Source: Luminiphilus syltensis NOR5-1B (GTDB lineage: Bacteria; Pseudomonadota; Gammaproteobacteria; Pseudomonadales; Halieaceae). From it: a stretch of DNA of 57,722 nucleotides. Shown here piece by piece: positions 2,708 through 20,623 of this stretch. The stretch is from the NCBI RefSeq assembly GCF_000158175.1, contig NZ_DS999411.1, positions 1,426,919-1,484,640 on the forward strand, written 5' to 3'. Each line of letters starts with the position of its first letter. The first letter of the stretch is position 1. The notes under the pieces were generated by a model that was given only the letters and a program-made list of their open reading frames with translations, searched no databases and had not been told where the DNA came from. The position numbers and the translations under genes are program-made.

Positions 2708-4174
2708 TCACGTTCTGGCGCCCTCCCAGAACCCGTGAAAACCATAGGGTTGAAGAGGTAGCGGCACTGCCGCGATGGGCCCCTTGGCAAGATTTTTCGG
2801 ATCGAACACGCAGAGCGTGGTCGTCATCAAAGCACCGTCATAGACAGCGGCAAGAACCCACCCGTCTTCAAGGTCGCTGGCGCCGGGCCGGGGTGCGAAG
2901 ATCGGCTCGCCGACGAACTGGCCCTCGCTTGCACTCCAGATTTCGGTGGGGCGGGACCGATCTACGGTATCCACCCGGGCAATTGCATCGAAGGGGTCTG
3001 ACTTCACGCCATCGCTGCGGGTCGACGCGTAGATGGCAGGCGCGGTTTGACCTTCCCGGGCGGGGTGGACGCGGGGAAAGTCCATGCCGTAGTCCGATAG
3101 CTGCTCCCATTGCGCGTAGTCTGAGTCGTCCCGAACGGTGGCTCTATAAAGCTTTTGGAACGATGGACGGTTGTCGGGTAACTCGATATCCAGCGGCCTA
3201 TGGGGCCCCTGGAAGCCGAATTCACCGCCGAAATCAAAGGATTCGAACGCGCACAATTCTATCGAGCAGGTGCTCTCGTCGACGTCCTGCGCGTTCGCGA
3301 AATGAACGACGAAGGCGCGCTGGGGAAGTCGGATGGTGCGCACGGGACCAGGGCGCCCGCGGGGTATCAGGTATAGCTCACCGCCCTTCGAACTATCCGT
3401 ACGCAGCGCCTCGAGCAGCGAGCCGAAGCCGAGCATCGCCTTGGCGAACTTCGGCAAGCTCACTTTCATCGGATTACCTGCCAGCACATACCAGCGCGGG
3501 GTCGCCACAAAATCGTGCTCGAACTGTATGCCGGGAATAGATGCCTCGCGTTCGGCGACTTGCTTACCCGAGGCGTCGAACTCGCGAAATACAAAGCGGG
3601 CGGGACTCTCCCGGAACAGGTTGCAGCCGATCAGGCGATTGGCCGCGGTATCGATACGCATGTGCGCGAGGAAGGCGGCATCGGGAAGGGCGCCGTTAAA
3701 GGTCTCTTCGCCAATCGTCTCCAGGCTGTCGGAGTCCAGCGCATAGGGCCGGCCTCCTTCCCAACCGGATATCAGGCGCCCCGCCCAGGGCTGAATGGTG
3801 GTATTTGACACATTGCGCGGGCCCGGGGCGCGAATGTTGCGCAGCGGTGACTCACTGACGTTGGTGCCGAGGCCTTTATGGACAAGGTGTCCGGCCGCGT
3901 GCTCGTCGACGTAGGCCGGGGTCTTGACGAACCGCGCCCGGTAGCTGGCCCCTCCGTCGTGTGTAAAGGTGAGCGACCGCACCAGACCGTGCCCATCGAA
4001 GGGGTGTGCGAGTCGATCGCCGATCTTTGTCCAACCGGGACCGTTCTGAAGATGGCGCCCACCGGCAAGCTCGGGTGGCAGTGCCCCTTCGATTGCAGAC
4101 GCCGGAATCTCGAAGGTCTGCTCTCCCGGATTCGCCGTCATCACCGTGTTCCACGCGCCTGCCCGTACGCTCAT
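2708..4174 (-). CDS. Carotenoid oxygenase (RPE65/CCD family)
   Basis: This 488-residue protein is of the family that cleaves carotenoid or related polyene and stilbene double bonds with a non-haem Fe(II) held by four histidines. Four well spaced candidates are visible: His171 (AFLAHMRID), His220 (FEHDFVATP), His291 (FVVHFANAQ) and His480 (YGFHGFWE). The N-terminal GRHLQNGPGW and HPFDGHG motifs are also typical. Length is usual for bacterial members. The ATG at 4172-4174 is preceded by an AGGA at good distance. No carotenoid or retinal biosynthesis genes are nearby, so the substrate (carotenoid, apocarotenoid or lignostilbene-like) cannot be fixed. It appears to be a single-gene unit. Confidence 0.9.
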   Translation of the reverse strand: MSVRAGAWNTVMTANPGEQTFEIPASAIEGALPPELAGGRHLQNGPGWTKIGDRLAHPFDGHGLVRSLTFTHDGGASYRARFVKTPAYVDEHAAGHLVHKGLGTNVSESPLRNIRAPGPRNVSNTTIQPWAGRLISGWEGGRPYALDSDSLETIGEETFNGALPDAAFLAHMRIDTAANRLIGCNLFRESPARFVFREFDASGKQVAEREASIPGIQFEHDFVATPRWYVLAGNPMKVSLPKFAKAMLGFGSLLEALRTDSSKGGELYLIPRGRPGPVRTIRLPQRAFVVHFANAQDVDESTCSIELCAFESFDFGGEFGFQGPHRPLDIELPDNRPSFQKLYRATVRDDSDYAQWEQLSDYGMDFPRVHPAREGQTAPAIYASTRSDGVKSDPFDAIARVDTVDRSRPTEIWSASEGQFVGEPIFAPRPGASDLEDGWVLAAVYDGALMTTTLCVFDPKNLAKGPIAAVPLPLQPYGFHGFWEGART

Positions 4175-4748: not shown

Positions 4749-5933
4749 CTAGGGCTCAAGACCTTGAAAAATAAACCGCTGCACGCGCCGACCGGTTTCG
4801 ACCTCAGCGGTGTAGAGGTTTCCGTCCGCATCGACATCAATACTGTGCAACCACGTGAACTGACCGGGATAGCGACCAATGCGGCCGAAGCTGCCCAGAA
4901 TTTCATGGGTCTCACGCAGCAGTATCCAGACCTTTCCATTCATCATGTCGGCGATGTAAAGGTAGGTGCCGTCCGGCGAGATAGCGACATCTGTCGCGGT
5001 GCCTGTGCCGCCTGAATTGGGGGCAATCACAATAGTCTCAATAAATTCGAACTTGCCGCCTGCTTCGCGGAAAACCTGAACACGGTTGTTGCGTCGGTCA
5101 CAGACATAGACGGTGTCTCCCGGACCCCGGACCACGCAATGCACCACACCTCCGAAAGTAGGAGAATGGGGTTCGGCGCTATAGTCGGCGCTGCTCTCCG
5201 AGAACAGGGCGCCGCCGTCTTCGCGTTGCCTGGTCTCGGGTTCTGTGGCGTGGGCACCCAGGTTCTGGATGTGGGTGAGATCGGTCTCGTCAAGTTGCAC
5301 GATACGATTGTTGGTGTAGCCATCGGCCACGAGTATGGACTCCCCGTTGTCGGAAACATCGGCGGGCTTGCCCAGGGTGCTGGTGCTGATATTTCCCTCG
5401 GTGGCGCCGCGACGACCGAACTGGCGAATGAATTCCCCTGTTGCTGTAAAATTCAGGATCACGTGGTCGTCATCGCCGTTTCCGCCAAGCCACACCGTAT
5501 CGTCGGCGTCGACAAACAAACCGTGAACGGTGCCCGGCCACTGATTGATACCGTTAATCTCGGGCGCCAGGCCAGGACCGCCCCAGGCTGTCAGCAGGTT
5601 ACCGTCCTGGTCAAAGCGCAGCACATGGGGCGCCGCGTGGCAGCAGCTCTGGGCGATCGGCGGATTCTTATCCAGCCCGATTTCAGAGGCGCTGAGCGAG
5701 TTCGGGCGGTGCAGAACCCAGATGGTGTTCGCTGCGTCAACGGCCACACCTGAGGCCTGCCCGATGATCAGGTCAGAGGGCAGCCTTGGCCATGCACCGT
5801 CGACGCTGAAGGTAGGAATGGGTGCGCGGTCACTGAGCCGTTCGCTGAAAACGCCGATGGGTGTGTCCGCCTGAACGAGGCCAGGTAGCAGTGCCAGAGT
5901 GGCGATAAAAACAGAACCGAAGCGATTGATCAT
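4749..5933 (-). CDS. Secreted NHL-repeat six-bladed beta-propeller protein
   Basis: The 394-residue product begins with a signal peptide (MINRFGSVFIATLALLPGLVQA) and would be periplasmic or secreted. The mature part has propeller blades of the NHL type, for example GVAVDAANTIWVLHRPNS, GLFVDADDTVWLGGNGDDD, DVAISPDGTYLYIADMMNG and SIDVDADGNLYTAEVETG. This resembles the propeller proteins related to peptidyl-alpha-hydroxyglycine alpha-amidating lyase, but the sequence alone does not establish that activity. A CCHAAPHVLRFDQDGNLL stretch is typical of these bacterial homologues. It is monocistronic or followed by the small 4428-4661 gene. Confidence 0.75.
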   Translation of the reverse strand: MINRFGSVFIATLALLPGLVQADTPIGVFSERLSDRAPIPTFSVDGAWPRLPSDLIIGQASGVAVDAANTIWVLHRPNSLSASEIGLDKNPPIAQSCCHAAPHVLRFDQDGNLLTAWGGPGLAPEINGINQWPGTVHGLFVDADDTVWLGGNGDDDHVILNFTATGEFIRQFGRRGATEGNISTSTLGKPADVSDNGESILVADGYTNNRIVQLDETDLTHIQNLGAHATEPETRQREDGGALFSESSADYSAEPHSPTFGGVVHCVVRGPGDTVYVCDRRNNRVQVFREAGGKFEFIETIVIAPNSGGTGTATDVAISPDGTYLYIADMMNGKVWILLRETHEILGSFGRIGRYPGQFTWLHSIDVDADGNLYTAEVETGRRVQRFIFQGLEP

Positions 5934-6352
5934 CAGAAGCTGCCTATATGTATTGACGGGTTATTGCGATCAAGAGAGATAGCCAGGGGTCAAGGCTGGA
6001 TGCTCCATGGTGACATCAACGCCGACAAGATACACCCGGAATGACGATTGATTCATAGTGCGCCACGCCGCAGCGTCGTGCCGAATCCCAATCAACAGCA
6101 GCCAGCGGTGTAACGAAAATCGGGTCCGTCGGTGCAGTGTTCCTGTGTACCACTGCAACAGCGAAGAGATTCTCTCGCTGAACGGAGATCAGGGTAAGTC
6201 GCAATTACCCTACCTCTGAATTGGGCCGATGAATCACTGGCCCACGCCAGCTGAAGGGCGTTTCATCGTAGACGGGAGTGGTATCGACACCCCCGGCATC
6301 GGAAACCAGTGGAGGCCACATACAGCACTCCACTTTCAAGGAACCATCGTAA
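5934..6352. other. Non-coding gap downstream of mcr, with a hairpin
   Basis: No gene is supported here. A perfect 7-bp hairpin AGGGTAA-N7-TTACCCT sits at 6191-6211, about 140 bp past the mcr stop. It lacks a T tract on the minus strand, so it is not a convincing intrinsic terminator. The stretch 6205-6352 is open on the minus strand in a frame different from mcr and reads like coding sequence, but it has no start of its own. It may be a decayed cistron. Confidence 0.3.
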
Positions 6353-9300
6353 TCAAACGGTAACGGCATTACCCCTGAAGATGCGGGCCAGATAACGGCT
6401 CTCTGAGGGACTGGGTGCAGGGACCGCGCACTGCAGTACCGCCGAAACCAGGCGTTCCATTTCTTCCTGCAATTCGCTCTCGGTGGCCGGCTCCTCAGCG
6501 CGAGCACGCCGGGTTAACTGCACCTGATTGACCGCGGGTACGGTGGGCAAGCGCTCGGTTTCAACCCCCAGGGTTACCGTAAAGGCATGCAGCGAGTTCT
6601 TGACGAACAGCGCAAGGGCGAATTCCTCCCGTGACGATACGAATGAAGTATCCGGAGTGAGCAAAACGATCTGGCAGTTGGGTACCAGCGCGGCGCGCCT
6701 TGCCACGCGGAAGTGATGGGTGAGCTGCTCATCGATCAGGCGCGCAAAGTCCGTGTGTGACAACACCCGATTCCAGGAACCTTCCCGTTCCGCGGCGAGC
6801 GGGTTGTAGGGCAGTCGGGAGAAGGGCGCGCTGACCACTACATCAAAGCCACCCTGGTTTTGCAACAGATCATCGAGAGCGTCTTCAATATTATCCTCGA
6901 TGCATCGAACATCCAAAGTGACCGAATTGCTCTTCTGAAGGCTGTGCTGCACTTCCTCACACGCCTCCGGGCTGCGAGTGAGAACCGTCAGTGAAGCAAC
7001 GCCCTGATTGATGAAGCCATTGCCAATCGCCGACAGTTCTTCGCGCATCGAATCACCGATGAGCACAACCCGCTTGCCCTTGAGTTTGGCGAGGCTGTCC
7101 CGGTCCGGTGGTAGCAGCAATTCCCCCTCGGTTACCGAGCGGTCAAACTTGAGGCCGCCGGAGGGGTGAAAGGTCTCGCCGCTGGCAATATCGTCGGCAA
7201 GGTGAAACACCGTTGACAGGCCAATCTGTTCATCGGTGGGCATTTTGTGGAGATGCAGTCGATTGAGAATACCCGCTTCGATTCCTGCGGCGGCTTTGTT
7301 TACCGATTTCTCGTCAAAGAAAATAGCGGGGGCATCAACAAAGCCCTCCATGAATTGAGTAGCACTTTCTGGTGTAAAGAGCCCGCCGGTGACCAGACGG
7401 TTCATCAGCTTTTCTGCGAGATCTCGGTTGAGGAGGAATGCGGTGGAATTACCGCCCTCAGGACTGTCCTCAACCTGCGCAAAAAGCTTGTCCAATGCCT
7501 TACTCTGTCCCGCGGTGGGCTTTGCGTCGCCCAGCGCGTTCCTCGACAGGGCCATAATGACTTCTGGGGTTGCGCCTTCACGCAAGGCGGCCAACACGGC
7601 CTTGTGCACGCTGTTCAATCGCTTGTTTTCAAGGACCAGTCGACCGCGTCGCTCAAAGAGTCCGGGTGCGCCGCCAAGGCCGCGCAGGCGCGCGCCATCC
7701 ACCGGCCCCGGTGCCAATGCGTTAATTCGAATTTCCGGGCCAAGATGACGTGAAAGAATTTCTGCCAGTACTCGCTGACCTGCTTTTGAAACGGCGTAGT
7801 CCGCCCGATTGGGATAAGCCACCGCGACGTACTTTTCGCCGCCGAAGTAACTGGAGACATTAAGTACGACGCCATAGCCATTGGCCTTCATTTTTGGGGC
7901 GTACTTGCGAATCAATGAGTAGTTGGAAATGAGGTTGGCGTACATGGTGCGATTCCATGCCTCAAGCGACATATCGACAACCATTTCCTCAGCGCCGGAA
8001 ATGCCGGCGTTGTTGATGAGGAAGTCCACATTTCCGAAGAGCTCTATTGAATGATTATACAAACGCTCAAGCGCTTCCTCATCGCCGACATCGATGTCCG
8101 GGAGGATGTGGACCCGCTGATGGGCGTTGGGATAGCCAACGCCGCGGAGTTCTTCGACAATTTCATGGCGTGCCTCCTCGAGCTTTTCCTTACTGCGAGC
8201 CGAGAGCAATACACGGGCACCCGCGATAGCCAGGAAACGGCCCAATTGCAGGCCAATGCCAAGACTGCCACCGGTAATCACCGCGGTACGGCCCTTGTGC
8301 AGGCCCGGCAACACGCGCTGAATGGATTGCGGCATACCGCTCTTGCCGGTTGCGCGCATGATGCTTTCAGGCACCCAGAGGTTTATCGGATCCATGCGTC
8401 GGACCCGGTTGGTTAGCGTCGCGGCCCAGTCTGCGGTAAATGTGAGATTGTCTTCTTCGTTGTTGTCGTAGCGAACCAGCTGGTTAGGCAGCATTGCCCA
8501 CTCGCGCTCGCCTTTTTTGCGCATCTGGCGGTCTTCGTGACGCCAAATGCGGATCAGCGCTTCGATAGCTGCCCGTTTTACTTCGTTGAGATAGTCCCCA
8601 TGGCCATCGGTGGGATTGGTAACGTAGGTCAGGGCCGGTGCTTCTTCGAGGATGCCCCAGCGATCAAGGTTGATCGCCAATGCTGCAGCAAATGCTACGG
8701 GAGATATAATTTCATCGCGAACAAAGGCTTCAACATCGTCATCACCGGCGGTACTGAGCGAGTAGCCGTGCTCTCCGTTGCCCGAGCGCGGTAACACAAC
8801 AATGCCGTCTAATCGGCCGAAGTGATCGCGGATATAATCGAAACAACGGTCTGCCGATTCCCGTCGCAGCGGTTCCAGATGCAGTAGATGAATGCTTTCG
8901 AGATCGCGCGAGGCGCAGAGTGAGCGAGCGAGCCCGAGCGATTCCAGACTGCGGAAGGCAAGAACAACCTTGGCACCACTGACCATATGGCGTTCAGCAA
9001 ATGCCAGTGCGTCTTCATAGTCGCTGCCAGCGAGCAAAAATACAACCTGCCCACTCAGGTCTTCCAGTCGCTTGTCGGGCCAGGATACGAGTTTAGAGCG
9101 GCTTTGCGCGGGCACCTGCATGCCATTGGTGACCTCGATGTGGTGTCCGGATAGCGCGGCGGATTCCTCCGATGCCAGCCAGGTCACCGTAGAGGCCACA
9201 TCGTTTGGCGTCGGATAGCGATATTCGTACTCACCATCGGGGTTCTCTCGCCGGGTAATCATCAGGTCCCGGAATTCCTGCGATGTCGCACCTGCCGGTG

Positions 9301-9985
9301 CGCTTTGCAGCGCATCCATATTGCCAAAGACGGTGTCGATGCGCTCCGATTCAATGGGGCCGGGAAACAGCGTATTGACGCGAATCCCGTGCTCCTCACC
9401 AAGCTCCTTGGCGAGGCCTATGGACAGCGCATTCAATCCGGACTTTGGCACCACATAGGGTATGCGTCCGTAATAGTGGGTGCGGGAAAAAATGGTGGAG
9501 ACATTGACGATGGAGCCGCCTTCGCTCATATGCGGGACCGCCGCACGGGTCATGTTCCAGGCGCCAGCGAGTAGATTCATCGCCGCATCGAGCATGGTTT
9601 CATCGTCGCCGCGCGCGAGGCGCTCGGATTCTGAAAAGGGGATGTCACGCAGCGTGCGCCGAGGCCCGGCGCCTCCCGCGTTATTGACCAGAACATCGAT
9701 GTTGCCGAAGTGATTGACTGTGGCTTTGACAATCTCGCGACATATATCGGCTTTGGCACTGTCACCAATCGCGATGAGTATATTGTCCCGATCAAAACCT
9801 TCTTCGACGAGACCCTCCACAAAGGCCTGGAGCTTGGGCTCATTACGCCCGGTCATTACCAAATTGGCCCCCTCGCGCAGCAAACTACGGCTGATATAGC
9901 TGCCGATGTTTCCCGCGGCGCCGGTCAAAATGACCACTTTGTCGTGCAAACGTCCGCCGCTGGTGGTGCGTGTCTCAGTATTCAT
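6353..9985 (-). CDS. mcr: Bifunctional malonyl-CoA reductase (NADPH), 3-hydroxypropionate-forming
   Basis: This protein reduces malonyl-CoA to malonic semialdehyde and then to 3-hydroxypropionate, the first committed step of the 3-hydroxypropionate bi-cycle. At 1210 residues it matches the length and layout of the Chloroflexus aurantiacus enzyme (1219 aa), which has two tandem short-chain dehydrogenase units. Unit one has the nucleotide motif TGAAGNIG (21-28) and an active-site YVVPK after YYGRIP. Unit two has TGGSLGIG near 567-574 and YAVSKAG after YPNRAD. From memory of the Chloroflexus protein, NVSSYFGGEK, LTHHFRVAR, LHAFT and LTRRARAEEP are also shared. In Chloroflexus the C-terminal unit reduces malonyl-CoA and the N-terminal unit reduces the semialdehyde. 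The ATG overlaps the pcs stop (ATGA), so translation is coupled. Cytoplasmic. Confidence 0.93.
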   Translation of the reverse strand: MNTETRTTSGGRLHDKVVILTGAAGNIGSYISRSLLREGANLVMTGRNEPKLQAFVEGLVEEGFDRDNILIAIGDSAKADICREIVKATVNHFGNIDVLVNNAGGAGPRRTLRDIPFSESERLARGDDETMLDAAMNLLAGAWNMTRAAVPHMSEGGSIVNVSTIFSRTHYYGRIPYVVPKSGLNALSIGLAKELGEEHGIRVNTLFPGPIESERIDTVFGNMDALQSAPAGATSQEFRDLMITRRENPDGEYEYRYPTPNDVASTVTWLASEESAALSGHHIEVTNGMQVPAQSRSKLVSWPDKRLEDLSGQVVFLLAGSDYEDALAFAERHMVSGAKVVLAFRSLESLGLARSLCASRDLESIHLLHLEPLRRESADRCFDYIRDHFGRLDGIVVLPRSGNGEHGYSLSTAGDDDVEAFVRDEIISPVAFAAALAINLDRWGILEEAPALTYVTNPTDGHGDYLNEVKRAAIEALIRIWRHEDRQMRKKGEREWAMLPNQLVRYDNNEEDNLTFTADWAATLTNRVRRMDPINLWVPESIMRATGKSGMPQSIQRVLPGLHKGRTAVITGGSLGIGLQLGRFLAIAGARVLLSARSKEKLEEARHEIVEELRGVGYPNAHQRVHILPDIDVGDEEALERLYNHSIELFGNVDFLINNAGISGAEEMVVDMSLEAWNRTMYANLISNYSLIRKYAPKMKANGYGVVLNVSSYFGGEKYVAVAYPNRADYAVSKAGQRVLAEILSRHLGPEIRINALAPGPVDGARLRGLGGAPGLFERRGRLVLENKRLNSVHKAVLAALREGATPEVIMALSRNALGDAKPTAGQSKALDKLFAQVEDSPEGGNSTAFLLNRDLAEKLMNRLVTGGLFTPESATQFMEGFVDAPAIFFDEKSVNKAAAGIEAGILNRLHLHKMPTDEQIGLSTVFHLADDIASGETFHPSGGLKFDRSVTEGELLLPPDRDSLAKLKGKRVVLIGDSMREELSAIGNGFINQGVASLTVLTRSPEACEEVQHSLQKSNSVTLDVRCIEDNIEDALDDLLQNQGGFDVVVSAPFSRLPYNPLAAEREGSWNRVLSHTDFARLIDEQLTHHFRVARRAALVPNCQIVLLTPDTSFVSSREEFALALFVKNSLHAFTVTLGVETERLPTVPAVNQVQLTRRARAEEPATESELQEEMERLVSAVLQCAVPAPSPSESRYLARIFRGNAVTV

Positions 9986-12900
9986 CGCAGTGCTCCTGCA
10001 GATCCGGTGTCAATGTTTGCGAGGGTTTCCCCCCGCTGTTCGGCTTCGCGAATGGCCCAGGCGCGGTAAAGTTCATCCCGCGTTTTGAGCCCCGGGCGGG
10101 GAAGGTCATGGGTGGCGACGTAATTCGCCCCCGCATGACGGTTTTCCCACATGGCCTGGTGGGCCTCGGCAATATCGGTCAGGGGCACGGCGACCGGTGG
10201 CATGACATCGATCAGGCCACCGGCAATCCGTTCCTGCATTTCTGCAAATTCCCGTGCCGTATTGAGGTGGGTACCCCGGATCTCTGCACTGGGCATAATG
10301 ATTCGCCGCTGTCGCATCCAGACCTGCGGCGCATAAAAGCTGAAGCGACAACCGCTGAGGTCTTCGGAGTAAACCACTTTCCCGATATTGGGTTTAACCA
10401 GTGATGTCGCCAAGCCCAGGCCGTCGCGGCGGGCGCGTTCGAACACCACGTCGGGCAATCCGCGCTTATCCAGCGTATTGCGCAGGAACGGCGCAATCGC
10501 TGATCCAATGGGCTTGAGCGTTCGGTCGGAGAACCGGCGTACCGCCTCTTTAAAGGCCTCCGACTCCGTGAAGGGATCCGGTAGTTCGGGAAACGCCCCC
10601 GGTGGATCAAAGTCGTCGCCCAATTTGCGGGCGATGGCATCGACGCTGACCACACCGGTGAGTCGCGTGCCGAAGCCCAGCGAGGTAACGAATTCGCGCT
10701 GTGCGGCGTTATCGGCAAGTACTGCTACCTGAGCCCCAAGACTGCATCCGACTTCGATGGCCTCGATCGCAACCGGATCGACCACGCCATCCTCAGCGCC
10801 CGGTCCATAAATAACCAGAAGTGACTTTCCGGCTCGCATCTCGGCGCGGTCAAACATTTCAGCCGGCGACGAGCGTCCGGTTTTACCCATAAATGAAAAA
10901 CGGTATCCGGACGAGGCGCCGTAAAAGGCCAGCACGCCGCCGTTGCCCAATAATTGGAATGAGCGCGGGAAGGCCAGTTCCCCCGCGTGAGAAACCACGT
11001 AGTCGATGTCGCCGCCGGCCTGCGCCCGGGCCTCCGCGACGAAAGCTTCGCCGGCTTGCTCCCAGGCATCCCACGCAGCCGGATCCTCGGGTACCGGGGT
11101 AAAGATATCTTTCCAAAGCGGATTTTTTCGATTTACCGCCGCACCGCCAAACTCACGAACGCGTTCGCCGCGATCATCGGAGGACACCATTCCAACGACC
11201 GACAGACCGCTCTGCCGCGCCGTGCGCAGACAGTCCAGTCCAGTGCCCGTCGCTGCGCCTTCCACAAACAATCGCCGCCCGGGCTTGATGTTTAGCGTCG
11301 TAAACAGTGCACGGTGAATGGTACCGAGGGTCAGCCCGTAGGAGCCCGCTTCCTCAATAGTGAGACTGGGAAGCTTGGGATGTAACTGCGGACCCTGCAC
11401 CGCAAGGAACTGCCCATGACTACCATCGTTCTGTTCATAGCCCTGGATACGGAAATCGGCGGCCATTGGGTCCAGACCCTGATCCGGCGAGAGCAGTTCG
11501 CTTTGGCCGGAGTAAATTGTGACCAACTGTCCAACGGATAATCTTCCCTCGCGCAGCAGTTCGGAACCAAGCTGGGCGACGATCGCGACGCCGCCGGAGC
11601 CGGTGACCTGTACATCAGAGTCCCGGGCATCGAAGGGGGAGACCGGAATACCCGTGATGGCCCAGATGTCATTGAAGTTCATTTCGGAGGCGAGTATGAA
11701 AACGAGGGCCTCGTTGGGACCGGGGGTGGGCGTTGGAAATACCAGCAGTTTTTCCGCATCTTTGGGATCGGCGTGCGCGGGCGCACCGGTGTGCGGATTC
11801 TTGCAGACCCCCATTCCGTACTGGTAGCGCGGTACTGGTGTGACACCGGCGAAAAAGGGTGCGCCCAGGGGGATAAGATCGCCCGCCGCTTCCAACGCCT
11901 GGCGCTGTTCCATAGGTGCATCGGCGGGCACCGGCGTGTACTTGATGGGCAGCGGCGCACTACGTCGTTCGAGGAAAGCGCTGATACCCACGGGGCCGGC
12001 TGCCGGGTCGCAGACCGCTGCGGCAAAGAGCTCTGCTTCATGCTTCAGACCCGCGGACTGGCCCTGCTCTGCACCAAAGCGAATGGCGTCGATGACCCGC
12101 TCAAGGCAGTGACCGCGGCCGCTGCCCTTGAGCTGCGTAAAGGTGCTGGCCAGTGCCGCGTCATGGAGCAGTTCATCGTCGATGGTCAATTTTTCTTCGC
12201 GACTGGCAAGGTAGGCCTGCTGGCGCGAAAGGGCGTCTGCTATCGGGCCAGTACCAGCAAAGTGCTCCCTAAGCATTGCCATGGCGGTTTCAACCGCACT
12301 CACTCCGGGCTGTGGGACGATGCTGTCGACAAGTCCGATCTCGAGGGCTTCATCGGCGTCGATGTTACGGCCGGACGCGATCATGCGAATGGCGTCAATC
12401 AAACCTTCGCGCCCGCGGCGTTGTTGCAGCCGCCGCACAAGACGCTGTGTGCCGCCGTAGCCCGGTAATAGATTGAGGTTGATCTCGGGTTGTCCGAAGC
12501 GCGCCTGCGGATCGGCAACGATACAGCCGCAGGCCAGGGCGAGCTCACAGCCTCCACCCAGCGCTGGACCGTTGACTGCGGCGATCACTGGTTTGCCCAG
12601 ATTTTCCAGCACCGAAAACGCGGTGTGGGCTGCATTGGGCGGTGTACGCGCGGACTCCATGTCACCCGCTTCGCCGATCTCAAGCAGTTCCTTAACGTCG
12701 GCCCCCGCGACGAAGGCATTGCGCGCGCCCGTGACAACGAGCGCCTCAATACGGTCCTGCTGGGCGATGTGCTGCAGAACGGTATTGAGTTCATCCAGGG
12801 AGCGTTCGTTGAGTGAATTCACCGGGGGAGAGTCGATCACCAGCAGTGCAACAAAATGTCCTCGCACAATTTCATGGGTTTCGAGGCGCAGGAAACGATA

Positions 12901-15411
12901 GCTCTGTACGATTTCCCGTGCCTGAGTGAGCTGGCCAAAGGACTTCCAGTTGGCTACGATTTGCTGAATATCCCCAACGACTTCAGGGTTGCGCAAGGTC
13001 GATAGATCACCCAGGGGATCATCCAGAAGAATAGCGCGCAGGGTGCGACGCATGTATTTGCCCGAGCGTGTTTCCGGGAAAGCGGGGACAACCAGAAAGT
13101 CCGAGGGCACCGCGGTCACGCCTTTTTCGCTGCGAACCAGGCCCTGAAGTCGGCTGAAGTCATCGTCACCCAGTCGCGAACCCGGCGCGGCTATCAGAAA
13201 GGCTACCGGTGTCTCGCCTTTTTCATCGTGGGGTGCGCCAACGACCACGACATTGCCGATCGGGGAGTCAGTACGCAACGTCTTGTCACGCAGGATGGCA
13301 CCCTCGATCTCTTCAGTACCAATGCGGTGCCCGGAGACGTTGATGACGTCATCGGAACGTCCGTGCAGCGTAAAGGCACCGTCGTCGTGGGTTCGCGCAT
13401 AGTCGCCCTGAGTGTAGGCCAGGCCATCACTCCAGCGATTGAAGTAAACGTTGGTGAAACGTTCGATATCGCCGCGCCAATCCTCGCTTTCGAGGTTCTG
13501 TGCATCTCCCCAGATGGTGCGTGCGAGATAGGGGTAGGGCTGGGTGATGACCAGTTCGCCTTTCTCCCCGGGCTCCGCGAGGCGCCATGCACTGGCACTG
13601 CCATCAGCGGCGTTTTCTGTGGCAATACGAACTTCCGCCTGAATCCAGGGCAGGGGCCAGGTCTTGGCGTCGGGTTGCAGATCCTTTAAGTCTCCCCACG
13701 GGCAGGAAAACACCATTCCGCCGTGTTCTGTTGCCCAATAGGAGTTGATGTAATGGTCGCAGATCTTTTCCATGCCGAACTGCTGTACTGCCGGTGAGAC
13801 GGGCTCCGCACAGAAGGTCGCCACTTTCACACCGCTCATATCGTAAGCCGACATGTCCTCGACACTGGCCGGGTCAGTCATAACGGCTTTCAGGAAGGTG
13901 GAGCCTGCTTTGAAAATGGTCGCGCCCTGGCGCTCGATAATCGATGAAAAACGCCCCGCATGGGGAAACAGTGGCGAGCCCTCGGCGATGATGGTGGCAA
14001 TACCAAGGCACAGCGGTGCGGCAATGAGGTAGGCCTGCCCGGTAATCCAGCCTGGATCCCCGACAACATAGATCCGGTCATCTTCCGTTGCGTCAAACAC
14101 CATGCGCATGCTGTGGGCGATGCCTGCGAGCCAGCCACCATGGGTGTGTACGACGCCCTTGGGCTTACCGGTAGAGCCCGAGGTGTAAATGATAAACAGG
14201 GGCCAGTCTGCAGCGACCGGAAGCGCTGGGTGGGAAGCATTGAGCGCTTTGTACAGATCAGAATCAGAGAGTTCGAGAAGCCCCTCGATTGTGTCTGCGG
14301 TAAAGCCTGCTCCGACGGCAGCGGCGAGTACCTTCTCGGTTGCCTCACCAATGAGCTCGTGAGACCAGCGATCCCGCGATTGGCGAACAATATCCTGACC
14401 GGTATAGCGCACGACCACGACCTGTTTGACCGTGTGCTCCACAGCAGCGAGCTCGCGCGCAACGGTAGTGCGCAGTTCAGCGGATAGATCCGCAGGAATA
14501 TCGGTTTCGTCGGTTAGAGCGGCACCCAGCTCACGCATGAGATCGCTGCGTTCAATGGTGATCTCACCGGTAAGCCCCTGCGTTACGCGTTGACCGATGC
14601 GATCTTTGGCTTCTCCGAGCTCAAATCCGGCCAGAACGTCATTCAGGCAAGCCAGCGCCGAGGGTAGCGGGATGAAGTTGTCCAGCGCCTGGTCCGTGTA
14701 GGCTTCTTTGTAGGGAACGACCTCGGCGTTGCGGTAGCCCCCGTCAGCGGTGATAACGACTTTTGCGCCGGCATCATAAATACGATCTGAGAGCGTTTTC
14801 GCCGAAAAACCGCCAAAAACCGGCGTGTAGATAATGCCCAGTCGTTTCGCCGCCTGTGTGTAATAAATCTGCTCAAGAATATTAGGCAGGTTGAGCGCGA
14901 TGCGGTCTCCGCGCTCAAGGCCGAGGGATTTAAGAACTTCGGCGGCAACAACGGTGGATGCGAGCAGCTGACGGAAGCTAACCGTCGTTTCCTGTACCGG
15001 ACCGCCTTTACCTTCATTACGTGATGGATCCCAGCGGTCACCTTCAAATAGAATTGCAGGCGCGTTGCCGCGACCGGCGAGAACGTGGCGGTCAACTTCA
15101 TTGAAGCAGGCGTTGGTTAATGCGCCGCTGTACCAGCGATAAAAAGGCGCAGCGCTGTCGTCAAAGGCCGAGCGCCAGGGGCGCCAGTCATCGGGGTGTG
15201 CTGGCGCTGGATCTTGCGTGCCCGCAGTGCCGAGTCCATGCCAATGTCCGTCGCTTTCAATGCGGACCCAGTCACTGCCGTCGAACCAGTGCAGTTCTCG
15301 TGCAGCAATGTCCCCATGGTAGCGCCCTGGATCTTGAGAGACCTGCGCGCGCTGCGCCTGCTCGTCGGACGCATTGCGCAGGCGTCCCCAGCGATTTGTA
15401 TCTGAATCCAC
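9982..15411 (-). CDS. pcs: Trifunctional propionyl-CoA synthase
   Basis: The product turns 3-hydroxypropionate into propionyl-CoA in one polypeptide (1809 aa; Chloroflexus Pcs about 1822 aa). Domains in order: an acetyl-CoA-synthetase-like domain (about 1-810) with the AMP-binding motif YTSGSTGKPKG near 405, DPGWITGQAY and the C-terminal catalytic lysine in SGKYMRR near 784; a crotonase-type dehydratase (about 850-1110) with FVAGADVKELLEIG and GPALGGGCELALACG; and a medium-chain NAD(P)H-dependent acryloyl-CoA reductase (about 1250-1809) with VEGAATGTGLDCLRTARQSG. Start is GTG at 15409-15411 with GAGGT just upstream. The stop overlaps the mcr start by 4 bp, so pcs-mcr is one operon. The fusion retains reactive acryloyl-CoA inside the enzyme, as known for the family. 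Confidence 0.95.
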   Translation of the reverse strand: MDSDTNRWGRLRNASDEQAQRAQVSQDPGRYHGDIAARELHWFDGSDWVRIESDGHWHGLGTAGTQDPAPAHPDDWRPWRSAFDDSAAPFYRWYSGALTNACFNEVDRHVLAGRGNAPAILFEGDRWDPSRNEGKGGPVQETTVSFRQLLASTVVAAEVLKSLGLERGDRIALNLPNILEQIYYTQAAKRLGIIYTPVFGGFSAKTLSDRIYDAGAKVVITADGGYRNAEVVPYKEAYTDQALDNFIPLPSALACLNDVLAGFELGEAKDRIGQRVTQGLTGEITIERSDLMRELGAALTDETDIPADLSAELRTTVARELAAVEHTVKQVVVVRYTGQDIVRQSRDRWSHELIGEATEKVLAAAVGAGFTADTIEGLLELSDSDLYKALNASHPALPVAADWPLFIIYTSGSTGKPKGVVHTHGGWLAGIAHSMRMVFDATEDDRIYVVGDPGWITGQAYLIAAPLCLGIATIIAEGSPLFPHAGRFSSIIERQGATIFKAGSTFLKAVMTDPASVEDMSAYDMSGVKVATFCAEPVSPAVQQFGMEKICDHYINSYWATEHGGMVFSCPWGDLKDLQPDAKTWPLPWIQAEVRIATENAADGSASAWRLAEPGEKGELVITQPYPYLARTIWGDAQNLESEDWRGDIERFTNVYFNRWSDGLAYTQGDYARTHDDGAFTLHGRSDDVINVSGHRIGTEEIEGAILRDKTLRTDSPIGNVVVVGAPHDEKGETPVAFLIAAPGSRLGDDDFSRLQGLVRSEKGVTAVPSDFLVVPAFPETRSGKYMRRTLRAILLDDPLGDLSTLRNPEVVGDIQQIVANWKSFGQLTQAREIVQSYRFLRLETHEIVRGHFVALLVIDSPPVNSLNERSLDELNTVLQHIAQQDRIEALVVTGARNAFVAGADVKELLEIGEAGDMESARTPPNAAHTAFSVLENLGKPVIAAVNGPALGGGCELALACGCIVADPQARFGQPEINLNLLPGYGGTQRLVRRLQQRRGREGLIDAIRMIASGRNIDADEALEIGLVDSIVPQPGVSAVETAMAMLREHFAGTGPIADALSRQQAYLASREEKLTIDDELLHDAALASTFTQLKGSGRGHCLERVIDAIRFGAEQGQSAGLKHEAELFAAAVCDPAAGPVGISAFLERRSAPLPIKYTPVPADAPMEQRQALEAAGDLIPLGAPFFAGVTPVPRYQYGMGVCKNPHTGAPAHADPKDAEKLLVFPTPTPGPNEALVFILASEMNFNDIWAITGIPVSPFDARDSDVQVTGSGGVAIVAQLGSELLREGRLSVGQLVTIYSGQSELLSPDQGLDPMAADFRIQGYEQNDGSHGQFLAVQGPQLHPKLPSLTIEEAGSYGLTLGTIHRALFTTLNIKPGRRLFVEGAATGTGLDCLRTARQSGLSVVGMVSSDDRGERVREFGGAAVNRKNPLWKDIFTPVPEDPAAWDAWEQAGEAFVAEARAQAGGDIDYVVSHAGELAFPRSFQLLGNGGVLAFYGASSGYRFSFMGKTGRSSPAEMFDRAEMRAGKSLLVIYGPGAEDGVVDPVAIEAIEVGCSLGAQVAVLADNAAQREFVTSLGFGTRLTGVVSVDAIARKLGDDFDPPGAFPELPDPFTESEAFKEAVRRFSDRTLKPIGSAIAPFLRNTLDKRGLPDVVFERARRDGLGLATSLVKPNIGKVVYSEDLSGCRFSFYAPQVWMRQRRIIMPSAEIRGTHLNTAREFAEMQERIAGGLIDVMPPVAVPLTDIAEAHQAMWENRHAGANYVATHDLPRPGLKTRDELYRAWAIREAEQRGETLANIDTGSAGALR

Positions 15412-15461
15412 GCTGACCTCGTTCTTATCTTGTTATCTGTATTGACGCGCTTGCGCTATTC

Positions 15462-15479
15462 TTTGTTTACCGTAACAAA
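15462..15479. promoter_or_regulatory. Perfect dyad upstream of pcs, possible operator
   Basis: The 18-bp sequence TTTGTT-TACCGT-AACAAA is a perfect 6-bp inverted repeat about 50 bp before the pcs start and within the divergent pcs/ABC-transporter spacer. Its size and symmetry suit a dimeric repressor such as a TetR- or MarR-type protein. No such regulator is encoded in the window. The remaining spacer (15412-15840) holds no clear gene; a 21-codon reading frame with a good ribosome-binding site is listed separately. Confidence 0.4.
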
Positions 15480-15663
15480 AATTTTCGGCAACTTAAAAGT
15501 TACGCGCCGGAAAGTGACGCAGATCAACGAGGGTTTCTCATGGGTTGGCCCTACCTCGGGAATAAGTGCTCCAACAGAGTTAATGACTACACACCCTTGC
15601 CCCGCTCTCGGCGGGTAGAACCTGTAGAAAAGCTATAGAAAACAACGACGTGGGGGTGGAGTT

Positions 15664-15726
15664 ATGCGCTGGAAATTCGAGAAACCAGAGTTGGAGCCGG
15701 AGCACGCCGTACCGGCACGCATTTAG
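15664..15726 (+). CDS. Possible 20-residue peptide upstream of the ABC transporter
   Basis: An ATG at 15664 preceded by a purine-rich GGGGTGGAG two bases upstream opens a 20-codon frame (MRWKFEKPELEPEHAVPARI) ending at TAG 15724-15726. It sits ~115 bp before the ABC exporter on the same strand. It could be a leader peptide, a small cargo peptide or the start of a decayed gene. No conserved precursor motif is recognised, so this is only a candidate. Confidence 0.2.
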   Translation: MRWKFEKPELEPEHAVPARI

Positions 15727-15840
15727 CCGGTATTGGCCGTGCTAGTATTCCTTAACCTCAGGGCACGCCGGCCATGGTGCTTGCCCCAGTCGTCGAATCC
15801 CGCCAGACAATCCCATTAAGCGCACCGGACAGAGTTAGGT

Positions 15841-17696: not shown

Positions 17697-18746
17697 TCAC
17701 CGCAATCCGGCGTTGATGGAATCGAGCAGTCTCGAACCGGGACATAATTGTTTTTCATCCATTGAGTTCAATGGCCGCCTCGAGGTATCGAGTACATCGT
17801 GCAGTTCTTCGCTGTCGCGCTCAATATATAAAAGACCGGTCAGTATCTTGCCTTCGCTTGCGTAGTGATGTGCTGCCTGTAGCGCGGATTGTCGATCCTC
17901 AATATCGTAGTCGTTATCGTGCTTGTACAGGCGTACCACCGAGCCATCGTGCATGCAGACTTCGCAGGTATTGCCGGCATCGTAACTCGCGGTTATTTCT
18001 TCTCGCATCGGTACAAAATCTACGGGCATGGGCGCATTGACCTGCCGCATATGTTCATAGCTTTTGGTCGAGTCGGCGTGGTTATTGAACGTTACGCAGG
18101 GGGAGACGACATCGAGAAGGGCAAACCCGCGGTGGCTGATCGCCGCTTTGATCAGCGGTATCAGCTGCTGCTTATCGCCGGAAAAACTGCGCCCAACAAA
18201 AGTAGCGCCAATCTCAATGGCGAGCCGCGCGAGGTCGATAGGTGAGTACTGGTTCAAGTCACCCTTCTTGTTTCGTGAGCCGCTATCCATGGTGGCTGAA
18301 TCCTGACCCTTGGTCAGGCCGTAGCAGCCGTTGTTTTCAACCAGATAGGTCATATTAAGATTGCGTCGGACCACATGGGAAAACTGACCCAGGCCGATGG
18401 ATGCGGTATCGCCATCGCCCGATACGCCGATGTAAATAAGATCGCGGTTGGCCAGATTGGCGCCAGTCGCGACCGAAGGCATCCTGCCGTGGACACTGTT
18501 AAAGCTATGAGAACCGGAGAGAAAATACGCGGGGGTTTTTGAGGAACAGCCGATCCCCGACAGCTTGGCGACGCGATGGGGTTCGATACTCAATTCGAAA
18601 CAGGCATCAATGATCGCGGCACTGATCGAGTCGTGACCACAACCAGCACATAGGGTCGATAGCCCGCCCTCATACACCTGGCGCGTATGACCCAGCCCAT
18701 TGACAGGTGCATCGGGGTGCCGAAACATCGGTTTTACATAGGTCAT
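17697..18746 (-). CDS. 2-oxoacid:ferredoxin oxidoreductase, beta subunit
   Basis: The 349-residue beta subunit carries the thiamine-diphosphate site: the GDGD motif at 110-113 followed by VENNGCYGLTKGQDSAT (Asn138/139), plus the N-terminal TLCAGCGH and GIGCSSK motifs common to 2-oxoacid:acceptor oxidoreductase beta chains. With the alpha subunit it interconverts a 2-oxoacid plus CoA and an acyl-CoA plus CO2, using ferredoxin. Substrate choice (2-oxoglutarate, pyruvate or a branched 2-oxoacid) is not certain; the length and TKGQ(D)SAT motif fit the 2-oxoglutarate group. The ATG overlaps the alpha-subunit stop by 4 bp (ATGA), so it is the third gene of the operon. Confidence 0.88.
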   Translation of the reverse strand: MTYVKPMFRHPDAPVNGLGHTRQVYEGGLSTLCAGCGHDSISAAIIDACFELSIEPHRVAKLSGIGCSSKTPAYFLSGSHSFNSVHGRMPSVATGANLANRDLIYIGVSGDGDTASIGLGQFSHVVRRNLNMTYLVENNGCYGLTKGQDSATMDSGSRNKKGDLNQYSPIDLARLAIEIGATFVGRSFSGDKQQLIPLIKAAISHRGFALLDVVSPCVTFNNHADSTKSYEHMRQVNAPMPVDFVPMREEITASYDAGNTCEVCMHDGSVVRLYKHDNDYDIEDRQSALQAAHHYASEGKILTGLLYIERDSEELHDVLDTSRRPLNSMDEKQLCPGSRLLDSINAGLR

Positions 18747-20623
18747 GACGCAACGTCCTCAGTGGTTTCCAGCCCATGGATAGGCGTGATATTGCCGCCC
18801 AGCACATAGTTGCGGATCATGCTGGCGATCTTCAGGGCGGTAATCGGTAAACCATCGTATTCGAGAATGGCGACCAGCTTGTCTTTCATATGTACCTTGG
18901 TTTCATTGAGCATCAGCCGACGCATTTGGCCGTCGCGATTCTGCTCGATGATGAATACGCGGTCGTGGGTCTCAATAAATTCCTCGACATCCTCATTAAA
19001 GGGGAAAGAGCGGATGCGCATGGTATCGAGGTGAATCCCCTCCTTCGCGAGAATTTCGGTTGCCTCATAAGCCGGGGAAGCAGTGGTACCGAAAAATACC
19101 GCACCCATCGTGGTTTCAGCGTCAGCCTGTTTTATTTTTGGCGGGGGAACGAGGGACTTGGCAGTCTCGAACTTCTTCAATAGCCGGTCCATATTGCGAA
19201 CGTAGGCGGCGCCGTCTTCGGTATAGGCCGCATATTCGTCTTTTGAACTACCCCGTGTGAAATAGGAGCCCTTGCTGGGATGAGCGCCCGGATAAGTACG
19301 GTAGGGAATACCATCGCCATCGACATCAAGGTAACGACCCCAACGCTCGGTCATATCGTCAAGTGCGTCGGCGTCCAATACCTTGCCCCGGTCGTAGCGT
19401 CGTTCATCGTCAAATTCCAATGGCGGCGACATGCATTCGTTCATACCCAGCTCGAGGTCGCTCATAATAATGACCGGGGTTTGCAGACGTTCCGCGAGAT
19501 CGAATGCATCCAGCGTCATGCTGAAACATTCTGCTGGCGTGCCCGGAAACAACATGACGTGCTTGGTATCACCGTGAGAGGCGTAGGCGGCCATGAGTAC
19601 ATCGGACTGCTGGGTGCGCGTGGGCATTCCCGTTGATGGCCCGGCACGCTGCACGTCGACCAGAACGGCGGGCACTTCGGCAAAGTACGCCAGTCCCAAA
19701 AATTCACTCATCAGCGAGACCCCTGGTCCACTGGTTGCCGTGAACGCCCGGGCACCGTTCCAGCAGGCGCCAATGACCATGCCCATGGCCGAAAGTTCAT
19801 CTTCAGCCTGGACAATGGCATAGTTTTTCTTGCCGGTACCCGGGTCAATACGCAGTCGGCGGCAATACTTGTCGAAGGCGTCGATCACCGAGGTGGAAGG
19901 CGTGATCGGGTACCACGCAGCAACCGTCGCTCCCGCATACACGGCGCCCAGCGCGATGGCCGTATTGCCATCCATAAGAATATTTTCGAAATCGCCAATA
20001 TGCTTGCCCACGGAATGCCCCGGCTCCAGATGCATGGGAACGGGGCAGTCAAAATTACTACTGGCATATTGATAGCCCAGCTCAAGAGCATAGACATTCG
20101 GAGTGATCAGCTTTTCCTTGCCCTTGAACTGCTCGGAGACCAGGTCCTTCAGGATGCCGAAGTCGATATTGAGCAGTGCCGCCAGTGCGCCCACATAAAT
20201 AACATTTTTGAATAACAGCCGTTGTCGTGCGTCGGTATATTCCCTCAGGCAAATTTCGGTAAATGGGATGCCGATATAGTGAATATCCTTGCGAACCAGA
20301 CGCAAATCGAGGGGTTTGGTGGAGTCGTAAATAAAGTAGCCGCCAGCATCGACCTCTGCGACGTCGCGCTGCATGCTTTGCGGGTTGACGCAAACCATGA
20401 TGTCGGTGCCACCACGCCGACCCAGATAGCCGTATTCGCTAACCCGTACCTCATACCAGGTCGGCATACCCTGAATATTTGACGGGAAGATATTTCGGGG
20501 ACTGACAGGAATTCCCATTCGAAAGATCGCCTTGGCGAACATGCCGTTGGCGCTGGCAGAGCCCGTGCCATTCACATTGGCAAACTTTATGACGAAGTCA
20601 TTTACGGACGCTTTTGGTTGCAT
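18743..20623 (-). CDS. 2-oxoacid:ferredoxin oxidoreductase, fused gamma-alpha subunit
   Basis: In this 626-residue chain the first ~190 residues are the gamma domain (FANVNGTGSASANGMFAKA, YGYLGRRGGTD) fused to the alpha domain (about 215-626) with the typical GNTAIALGAVYAGA, WYPITPST, QAEDELSAMGMVIGA and TSGPGVSLMSEFLG motifs. The gamma-alpha fusion is the KorA-like arrangement of two-subunit oxidoreductases that need no dedicated delta ferredoxin chain. The neighbouring FAD/Fe-S protein may act as the electron partner. The start codon lies 22 bp inside the end of the upstream gene, and the stop overlaps korB, so all three genes are translationally coupled. Confidence 0.88.
   Translation of the reverse strand: MQPKASVNDFVIKFANVNGTGSASANGMFAKAIFRMGIPVSPRNIFPSNIQGMPTWYEVRVSEYGYLGRRGGTDIMVCVNPQSMQRDVAEVDAGGYFIYDSTKPLDLRLVRKDIHYIGIPFTEICLREYTDARQRLLFKNVIYVGALAALLNIDFGILKDLVSEQFKGKEKLITPNVYALELGYQYASSNFDCPVPMHLEPGHSVGKHIGDFENILMDGNTAIALGAVYAGATVAAWYPITPSTSVIDAFDKYCRRLRIDPGTGKKNYAIVQAEDELSAMGMVIGACWNGARAFTATSGPGVSLMSEFLGLAYFAEVPAVLVDVQRAGPSTGMPTRTQQSDVLMAAYASHGDTKHVMLFPGTPAECFSMTLDAFDLAERLQTPVIIMSDLELGMNECMSPPLEFDDERRYDRGKVLDADALDDMTERWGRYLDVDGDGIPYRTYPGAHPSKGSYFTRGSSKDEYAAYTEDGAAYVRNMDRLLKKFETAKSLVPPPKIKQADAETTMGAVFFGTTASPAYEATEILAKEGIHLDTMRIRSFPFNEDVEEFIETHDRVFIIEQNRDGQMRRLMLNETKVHMKDKLVAILEYDGLPITALKIASMIRNYVLGGNITPIHGLETTEDVAS

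Follow-up and report, generated by a model that had tools for sequence, protein, structure and literature searches.

A pcs-mcr gene pair of Luminiphilus syltensis and its association with type-II reaction-centre genes

Why does the gammaproteobacterium Luminiphilus syltensis NOR5-1B carry, side by side, two giant genes known from the 3-hydroxypropionate bi-cycle of Chloroflexus? The stretch that we analysed, called the window here, covers 57,722 nucleotides (G000:C1:1426919-1484640) of a one-contig genome of 3,261,541 bases that is 99.83% complete. On its minus strand lie pcs (9982..15411, 1809 aa, GTG start), predicted to encode the trifunctional propionyl-CoA synthase Pcs (3-hydroxypropionyl-CoA ligase, 3-hydroxypropionyl-CoA dehydratase and acryloyl-CoA reductase), and mcr (6353..9985, 1210 aa, ATG start), predicted to encode the bifunctional malonyl-CoA reductase Mcr, which would convert malonyl-CoA through malonate semialdehyde to 3-hydroxypropionate with 2 NADPH. 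The answer that we favour, and hold to be fairly probable, is that the pair forms a stand-alone module from malonyl-CoA to propionyl-CoA that serves as a light-linked carboxylating anaplerotic route and as a sink for NADPH.

According to this proposal, acetyl-CoA carboxylase would feed the module, Pcs would activate, dehydrate and reduce the 3-hydroxypropionate made by Mcr to propionyl-CoA (1 NADPH, ATP to AMP), and a separate operon of propionyl-CoA carboxylase (PCC), epimerase and methylmalonyl-CoA mutase (MCM) would carry the product to succinyl-CoA. The enzymes would work in this direction, and flux through them would most likely be found in the light, when cyclic photophosphorylation supplies ATP and reductant need not be spent on respiration. 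The role would be an oxygen-tolerant carboxylating anaplerosis and NADPH sink beside the glyoxylate shunt, analogous to the redox-balancing part of RuBisCO in purple non-sulfur bacteria. More tentatively, we suggest that the pair may be a self-contained accessory of aerobic type-II phototrophy, moved horizontally, in which two genes provide an electron sink and a branch for fixing bicarbonate, and not a stray piece of the Chloroflexus cycle. It may have joined at least three phyla (Pseudomonadota, Gemmatimonadota and, judging by the one of two mcr-bearing bins that has puf genes, Myxococcota), be kept only with a reaction centre and take RuBisCO's redox role. For coastal bacteria, a two-gene marker found mostly with reaction centres would offer a specific candidate, open to deletion, for disposing of NADPH and taking up bicarbonate in a light-dependent manner.

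Several published observations touch on this idea. For phototrophic strains of the OM60/NOR5 group, including L. syltensis, an accumulation of reductant has been argued from pigment data, and the same paper cites RuBisCO mutants unable to grow photoheterotrophically for want of a CO2-fixing sink (PMC3666943). In Porphyrobacter ULC335 the genes of the 3-hydroxypropionate bicycle are up by day and co-assimilation of CO2 was suggested (PMC10674011). Aerobic anoxygenic phototrophs have been described as incapable of growth by CO2 fixation (PMC12654162).

The gene pair and its two enzymes

The initial annotation had described two giant multifunctional open reading frames of Chloroflexus-like length and domain order joined by a 4-bp overlap. 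Both parts of this description hold: the reading frames lie at the positions given above and share ATGA at 9982..9985 (minus strand), which contains the stop of the upstream pcs and the start of the downstream mcr and suggests translational coupling. The presumed promoter region is located upstream of pcs (15412..15840, minus strand). We compared the window with the best 80 of 108 mcr loci, a set covering neither Chloroflexota nor Rhodobacterales. Both genes were found in 68 of these loci and, since pcs precedes mcr on the same strand in all 68, the arrangement is not due to chance; in the other 12, mcr starts less than 600 bases from a contig end or is truncated by it. The 4-bp overlap of the window is also present in 44 of the 68 two-gene loci, and in locus L140 pcs ends 57 bases before mcr.

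The window Mcr has the size expected (about 1200 aa) and two catalytic SDR halves, matched at about residues 12-290 and 564-767. Its homology to known Mcr extends over the full length, with near full-length matches to the structures 8hi4_A (1067 bits, query 12-1210), which we take to be the Roseiflexus enzyme, and 8hjw_A (983 bits, query 10-1210). Pcs is a fusion of about 1800 aa with the order acyl-CoA ligase, enoyl-CoA hydratase and zinc-type reductase, and has a single near full-length structure match, 6eqo_A (1924 bits, query 15-1796), presumably the Pcs of Erythrobacter NAP1. The ligase P-loop and catalytic Lys motif of Pcs and both of its hydratase Glu motifs were found in 73 of 73 Pcs rows (match longer than 1700 aa, window included, some records counted twice). 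For Mcr, the catalytic and substrate-binding residues named for the Roseiflexus enzyme RfxMCR (PMC10470521) were mapped onto the window protein through its alignment with the matched Mcr structures, 11 of them with 2 further residues of the YXXRXXY motif, while the position of Arg1164 was matched by C-terminal offset only. The equivalents of T165, Y178, K182, S731, Y743, R746, Y749, K753, R785, L795 and R799 show the same residue in every one of the 43 rows (a selection of 43 from the loci set, plus the window; the broken row L162, with 17 in-frame stops, was left out of the residue count), and all 14 mapped positions, the Arg1164 equivalent included, are invariant in these rows. Loose patterns for the nucleotide-binding and YxxxK motifs matched 16, 43, 39 and 36 of 44 rows, and the check by alignment column was used in their place.

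Association with reaction-centre genes

The genome of NOR5-1B contains pufL and pufM (366 and 330 bits, G000:C1:2961890-2963557), the genes of a type-II reaction centre, and the joint occurrence of mcr and puf was counted in three sets of genomes. Counts are given below as both, mcr only, puf only and neither, with Fisher tests, by genome and uncorrected for relatedness. In the family Halieaceae, a manual count of mcr matches with at least 55% identity, in which fragments were accepted, places the gene in 48 of 140 genomes among the matches listed (to about E = 4e-19), while puf is present in 53 of 140; the joint count is 40/8/13/79 (p = 5.8e-16). When only the 78 high-quality genomes were considered (at least 90% completeness, at most 5% contamination) it became 19/0/6/53 (p = 2.6e-13), with puf in 19 of 19 mcr genomes versus 6 of 59 mcr-free ones. 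Outside the own genus, to which 57 of the 140 genomes belong, the association is also found (4/1/5/73, p = 3e-4; high quality 4/0/4/53, p = 1.3e-4).

The second sample consisted of 258 genomes, at least 90% complete, drawn evenly from the family of Novosphingobium AAP83 (G156), taken as Sphingomonadaceae. Here mcr (E <= 1e-40) was found in 24 genomes and puf above the cut-off in 48, with a 49th puf match below it, and the count of 24/0/24/210 (p = 8e-21) places puf in 24 of 24 mcr genomes versus 24 of 234 mcr-free ones. The third set derives from 39 mcr loci titled neither Halieaceae nor Luminiphilus; the 39 do not include L103, L123, L127 and L133, whose contigs match own-genus genomes, or L095 (HTCC2080) and L085 (NOR5-3), already in the Halieaceae counts. 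Searching 38 genomes gave puf in 34, six of the set overlapping with the Sphingomonadaceae sample. By title these include Sphingomonadaceae, Acetobacteraceae, Caulobacteraceae, Parvularculaceae, Rhodospirillaceae, Woeseiaceae and Wenzhouxiangella, together with Burkholderiales (puf in 1 of 2), Gemmatimonadaceae (2 of 2), Longimicrobiales (2 of 2) and Myxococcota (1 of 2). The pcs-mcr pair tracks phototrophy in two families and also where mcr occurs in further classes and phyla, a tie to light that the initial annotation had not noticed. In the literature searched, no tally comparing mcr with reaction-centre genes was found, whose coverage of subscription papers is limited, so the counted association seems, tentatively, to be new; the enzymes and the partial pathway were already known.

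A number of observations weigh against a light-linked sink. The reaction-centre genes lie about 1.5 Mb from mcr in the own genome. The counts ignore relatedness and bins may hold foreign contigs; within the own genus mcr and puf show no significant link (36/7/8/6, p = 0.064; among the high-quality genomes 15/0/2/0, p = 1). Eight Halieaceae genomes, all less than 90% complete, have mcr without puf, and so do 4 of the 38 genomes of the third set (completeness not given), namely one of Myxococcales, one of Burkholderiaceae, the gammaproteobacterial L162 and a Novosphingobium bin. Conversely, mcr is absent from 24 of 48 puf genomes of Sphingomonadaceae and from 6 of 25 high-quality puf genomes of Halieaceae, so phototrophy does not need it. 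There is no anticorrelation with RuBisCO, which gave a strong match in 5 of 58 mcr genomes (any match in 8 of 58) versus 0 of 22 puf-only genomes. The sequence TGTN12ACA, which we take to be a PpsR-type site, is not enriched upstream of the pair: 3 sites in 2 loci versus 2.5 expected in 39 loci (5 of them with hardly any upstream DNA or none, and at least 2 being one record counted twice), and none within 500 bases upstream of the window pcs. PpsR-type regulation of pcs-mcr was rejected on this count. The genome also encodes an isocitrate lyase (NF005074, 894 bits, cut-off 446), as do many of its relatives (PF00463 matches in 128 of 140 family genomes). Acetate anaplerosis can therefore do without the route, and the idea that pcs-mcr stands in for a missing glyoxylate shunt was rejected on the same gene (malate synthase was outside the search). 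Finally, although a Pcs-type reductase match in frames of at least 1,120 aa accompanies mcr in 54 of 58 mcr genomes, two puf genomes, G012 and G039, have Pcs without Mcr. In G012 (one contig, 99% complete) a Pcs 85% identical (L242 6626-12055) is followed by other genes; in G039 (74%) it runs to the contig end (L243 3-5426), so that only the genome-wide search speaks for a lack of mcr there.

In the puf-free bin of L162, mcr and pcs are spread over several frames, either through an error of assembly or because the genes decayed once phototrophy had been lost. The strong RuBisCO matches (above 430 bits) belong to G167, G148, G162, G308 and G166, four of which also have puf.

Two other explanations bear directly on these counts. 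One is that the pair serves to assimilate external 3-hydroxypropionate or acrylate, e.g. from dimethylsulfoniopropionate, with Pcs working and feeding PCC and MCM and with Mcr secondary. The two puf genomes with Pcs and no Mcr would fit such a use, but Mcr makes 3-hydroxypropionate and is useless for its uptake, yet it comes after Pcs in all 68 loci with both genes, and the tie to puf is left unexplained; we consider this unlikely. The other is that the link with puf reflects only shared habitat or descent, both gene sets being co-inherited in lineages of sunlit waters. Counting by genome, and not by independent event, speaks for it, as does the lack of significance within the own genus, but the link recurs in two families whose sampling took no account of mcr and again where mcr is carried in several classes and phyla, and the Mcr gene tree crosses genus lines (see below), which makes this explanation rather improbable too.

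Carbon routes in the genome

The reading in the initial annotation had presupposed a propionyl-CoA carboxylase and a methylmalonyl-CoA mutase elsewhere in the genome. A single run (L079) contains the only methylmalonyl-CoA mutase of the genome (NF006944, 1277 bits, cut-off 876), an epimerase (TIGR03081, 144 bits, cut-off 115), a biotin carboxylase/carrier protein of 934 aa and a carboxyltransferase of 580 aa. We read it as PCC, epimerase and mutase, the carboxylase by family and gene order, with a putative substrate. A second carboxyltransferase (L080) is accompanied by a biotin carboxylase and by neighbours that look, from the starts of their sequences, like an acyl-CoA dehydrogenase and an enoyl-CoA hydratase, a set as in the leucine route. 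Two further matches to the carboxyltransferase profile cover the halves expected for AccD and AccA. Judging from these genes and the established chemistry of their families, the cell could convert acetyl-CoA, 2 HCO3-, 3 NADPH and about 4 ATP equivalents to succinyl-CoA.

The product of the pair is propionyl-CoA, and no neighbouring gene fixes its fate, which would also suit a supply of propionyl-CoA or methylmalonyl-CoA as building block for odd-chain lipids or a storage polymer. However, the window and 20 loci of the family share no neighbour, as far as the stretches compared reach, and the onward genes to succinyl-CoA exist, so that we regard such a function as quite improbable.

Other carboxylating routes were searched in the same genome. 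The large subunit of RuBisCO (Calvin cycle) had no match, and the crotonyl-CoA carboxylase/reductase of the ethylmalonyl-CoA pathway had two matches (159 and 132 bits) below the cut-off of 378.55, the first of which falls within pcs itself; above the cut-off it was found in 1 of 80 genomes tested. That Mcr and Pcs substitute for RuBisCO or for the ethylmalonyl-CoA pathway among phototrophs was considered and dropped, both being rare with and without mcr and hence uninformative. No malyl-CoA, methylmalyl-CoA or citramalyl-CoA lyase was recognised among the three HpcH/HpaI proteins of the genome, of which L081 is CitE/RipC-like (82 bits with the malyl-CoA lyase profile, cut-off 500), L083 RipC-like and L082 HpaI aldolase-like, none of these labels attaining its own curated cut-off. 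At L083:5165-7745 an acyl-CoA dehydrogenase accompanies genes resembling an itaconate route, whose RipB- and RipC-like products stay under their curated cut-offs. The absence of malyl-CoA lyase had been noted for the neighbourhood and extends, among these three proteins, to the genome (mesaconyl-CoA enzymes were outside the search). Together with the PCC-epimerase-MCM genes, it fits the partial, mixotrophic or reductant-sink role that had been proposed at the outset.

A cycle of the 3-hydroxypropionate/4-hydroxybutyrate (HP/HB) type has been assigned to Luminiphilus, all its enzymes being reported in eight metagenome-assembled genomes in 2022 (PMC9802188). Besides that report, this assignment has in its favour that proteins of the dehydratase/isomerase type are present in many genomes of the genus and associated with mcr over the 140 genomes (both/mcr only/HpaB_N only/neither 33/15/20/72, p = 1.2e-7; high quality 13/6/14/45, p = 7e-4). 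A match to HpaB_N, the profile by which 4-hydroxybutyryl-CoA dehydratase was sought, was found above the cut-off in 53 of 140 family genomes, but not once in the one-contig NOR5-1B genome. Moreover, 6 of 19 high-quality mcr genomes have no HpaB_N above the cut-off, 14 high-quality genomes have it without mcr, and among high-quality genomes outside the own genus none has both (0/4/12/45, p = 0.58). We read the overall association as a genus effect that joins two separate traits. Unless an unrelated dehydratase does the step, the HP/HB cycle is contradicted in this genome, where we rule it out on the HpaB_N result (other enzymes of the 4-hydroxybutyrate arm were outside the search), and as an explanation of the pair we find it very hard to maintain. 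The lack of a recognisable 4-hydroxybutyryl-CoA dehydratase in a complete genome limits the printed inference of this cycle in Luminiphilus, a contradiction that seems to be new.

The HpaB-family proteins themselves (L048-L067, e.g. L057:1426-2955) are of the dehydratase/vinylacetyl-CoA isomerase type and common in Halieaceae with and without mcr. L057 matches 6vjr_A (vinylacetyl-CoA isomerase, 727 bits) and 1u8v_A (dehydratase/isomerase of the 4-hydroxybutyrate route, 557 bits). By eye, 13 of 14 loci have the stretches CFQRC and HRxSYVCK, which we take to hold the iron-sulfur ligands; L061:775-2325 (G102) has neither and is probably no dehydratase.

The full Chloroflexus-type bi-cycle, for which Mcr, Pcs and the PCC/MCM route are present, was rejected because no malyl-CoA lyase was recognised (mesaconyl-CoA transferase and mesaconyl-C4-CoA hydratase were outside the search) and is scarcely credible here. 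By known enzymes, neither this cycle nor the HP/HB cycle appears able to close in the genome.

Inheritance, neighbouring genes and known systems

The two proteins of the window are closest to those of NOR5-3, a strain of another genus (Mcr 89%, Pcs 86% identical); the values against the own genus are 67-71% for Mcr and, in full-length comparisons, 63-69% for Pcs. At the DNA level, the NOR5-3 locus (19.6 kb) is 76% similar to window positions 6351-15398 and nothing else in window 1-30000 matches. MCM and isocitrate lyase (ICL), in contrast, have their closest counterparts in the own genus (85-87% and 81-87%, versus 83% and 79% for NOR5-3). A tree of Mcr from 17 genomes unites the window with NOR5-3 (100/100), and monophyly of the own genus is rejected (approximately unbiased test, p = 7.6e-7), whereas a tree of MCM plus ICL from 20 genomes recovers the own genus as a single clade (100/99), and a grouping of window and NOR5-3 is rejected (p = 1.1e-4). 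This discordance would follow from exchange of the pair between members of the family or from differential sorting of two old versions; we think that the pair was probably exchanged horizontally. A wider Mcr tree (44 rows including L162, quick method, no Chloroflexota) has two main clades, a gammaproteobacterial type that also holds Longimicrobiales and Myxococcota, and an alphaproteobacterial type that also holds Burkholderiales and Gemmatimonadaceae. Carriage on plasmids is not supported, as 72,556 plasmid records gave no match.

Besides mcr and pcs, 13 genes of the window were compared with 20 family loci, many of them cut short on one side, and none recurs above 80 bits; a TonB receptor is the exception, with weak matches in 3 of the 20. 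Subsets of the relatives share neighbours of mcr-pcs among themselves but none with the window, as far as the stretches compared reach. One gene away from pcs, an operon-like run on the minus strand (17697-22395) encodes the beta and alpha subunits of a 2-oxoacid:ferredoxin oxidoreductase and a GltD-like NAD(P)/ferredoxin protein. In principle, such a set could make 2-oxoglutarate by carboxylation of succinyl-CoA, but in the relatives examined it is not beside mcr-pcs. Near mcr, also on the minus strand, are a carotenoid/lignostilbene-type cleavage oxygenase of the RPE65 family (2708-4174) and an NHL-repeat protein (4749-5933). Farther away, on the plus strand, two giant repeat proteins (44975-48226 and 48521-52390; tandem-95 and choice-of-anchor D repeats) are encoded in a stretch whose guanine-plus-cytosine fraction reaches 0.66.

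Several known systems can be set beside this one. A 2009 PNAS paper on Chloroflexus reportedly also noted mcr and pcs in Alpha- and Gammaproteobacteria. The same has been noted more recently (PMC9802188), and six Halieaceae strains were described as having no complete canonical CO2 fixation pathway (PMC10100682). Mcr and Pcs of Chloroflexus and Roseiflexus have the length and domain order of the window proteins and share the Mcr active-site residues named for Roseiflexus (PMC10470521), but in the window the genes form one operon with an ATGA overlap and the genome has no recognisable malyl-CoA lyase. Compared with the Alphaproteobacteria, the gammaproteobacterial type of Mcr is a separate clade (SH-aLRT 100 in the quick tree), 40-45% identical across and mostly with the 4-bp overlap. 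Dinoroseobacter is reported to fix bicarbonate by the ethylmalonyl-CoA pathway. This is likewise a carboxylating route from acetyl-CoA in a photoheterotroph, with different enzymes, its crotonyl-CoA carboxylase being below the cut-off here. In purple non-sulfur bacteria CO2 fixation likewise consumes reductant during photoheterotrophy, by way of RuBisCO (PMC3666943), which has no match in this genome. Closest in setting are Erythrobacter NAP1, whose 6eqo_A is the nearest solved Pcs to that of the window, and Porphyrobacter, aerobic phototrophs with the same enzymes and without a full fixation cycle, the latter with up-regulation by day (PMC10674011). Phototrophs of Microcystis blooms appear to use the bicycle although no propionyl-CoA carboxylase was detected in them (PMC11089705), whereas the genome of NOR5-1B contains a gene set of the propionyl-CoA carboxylase type.

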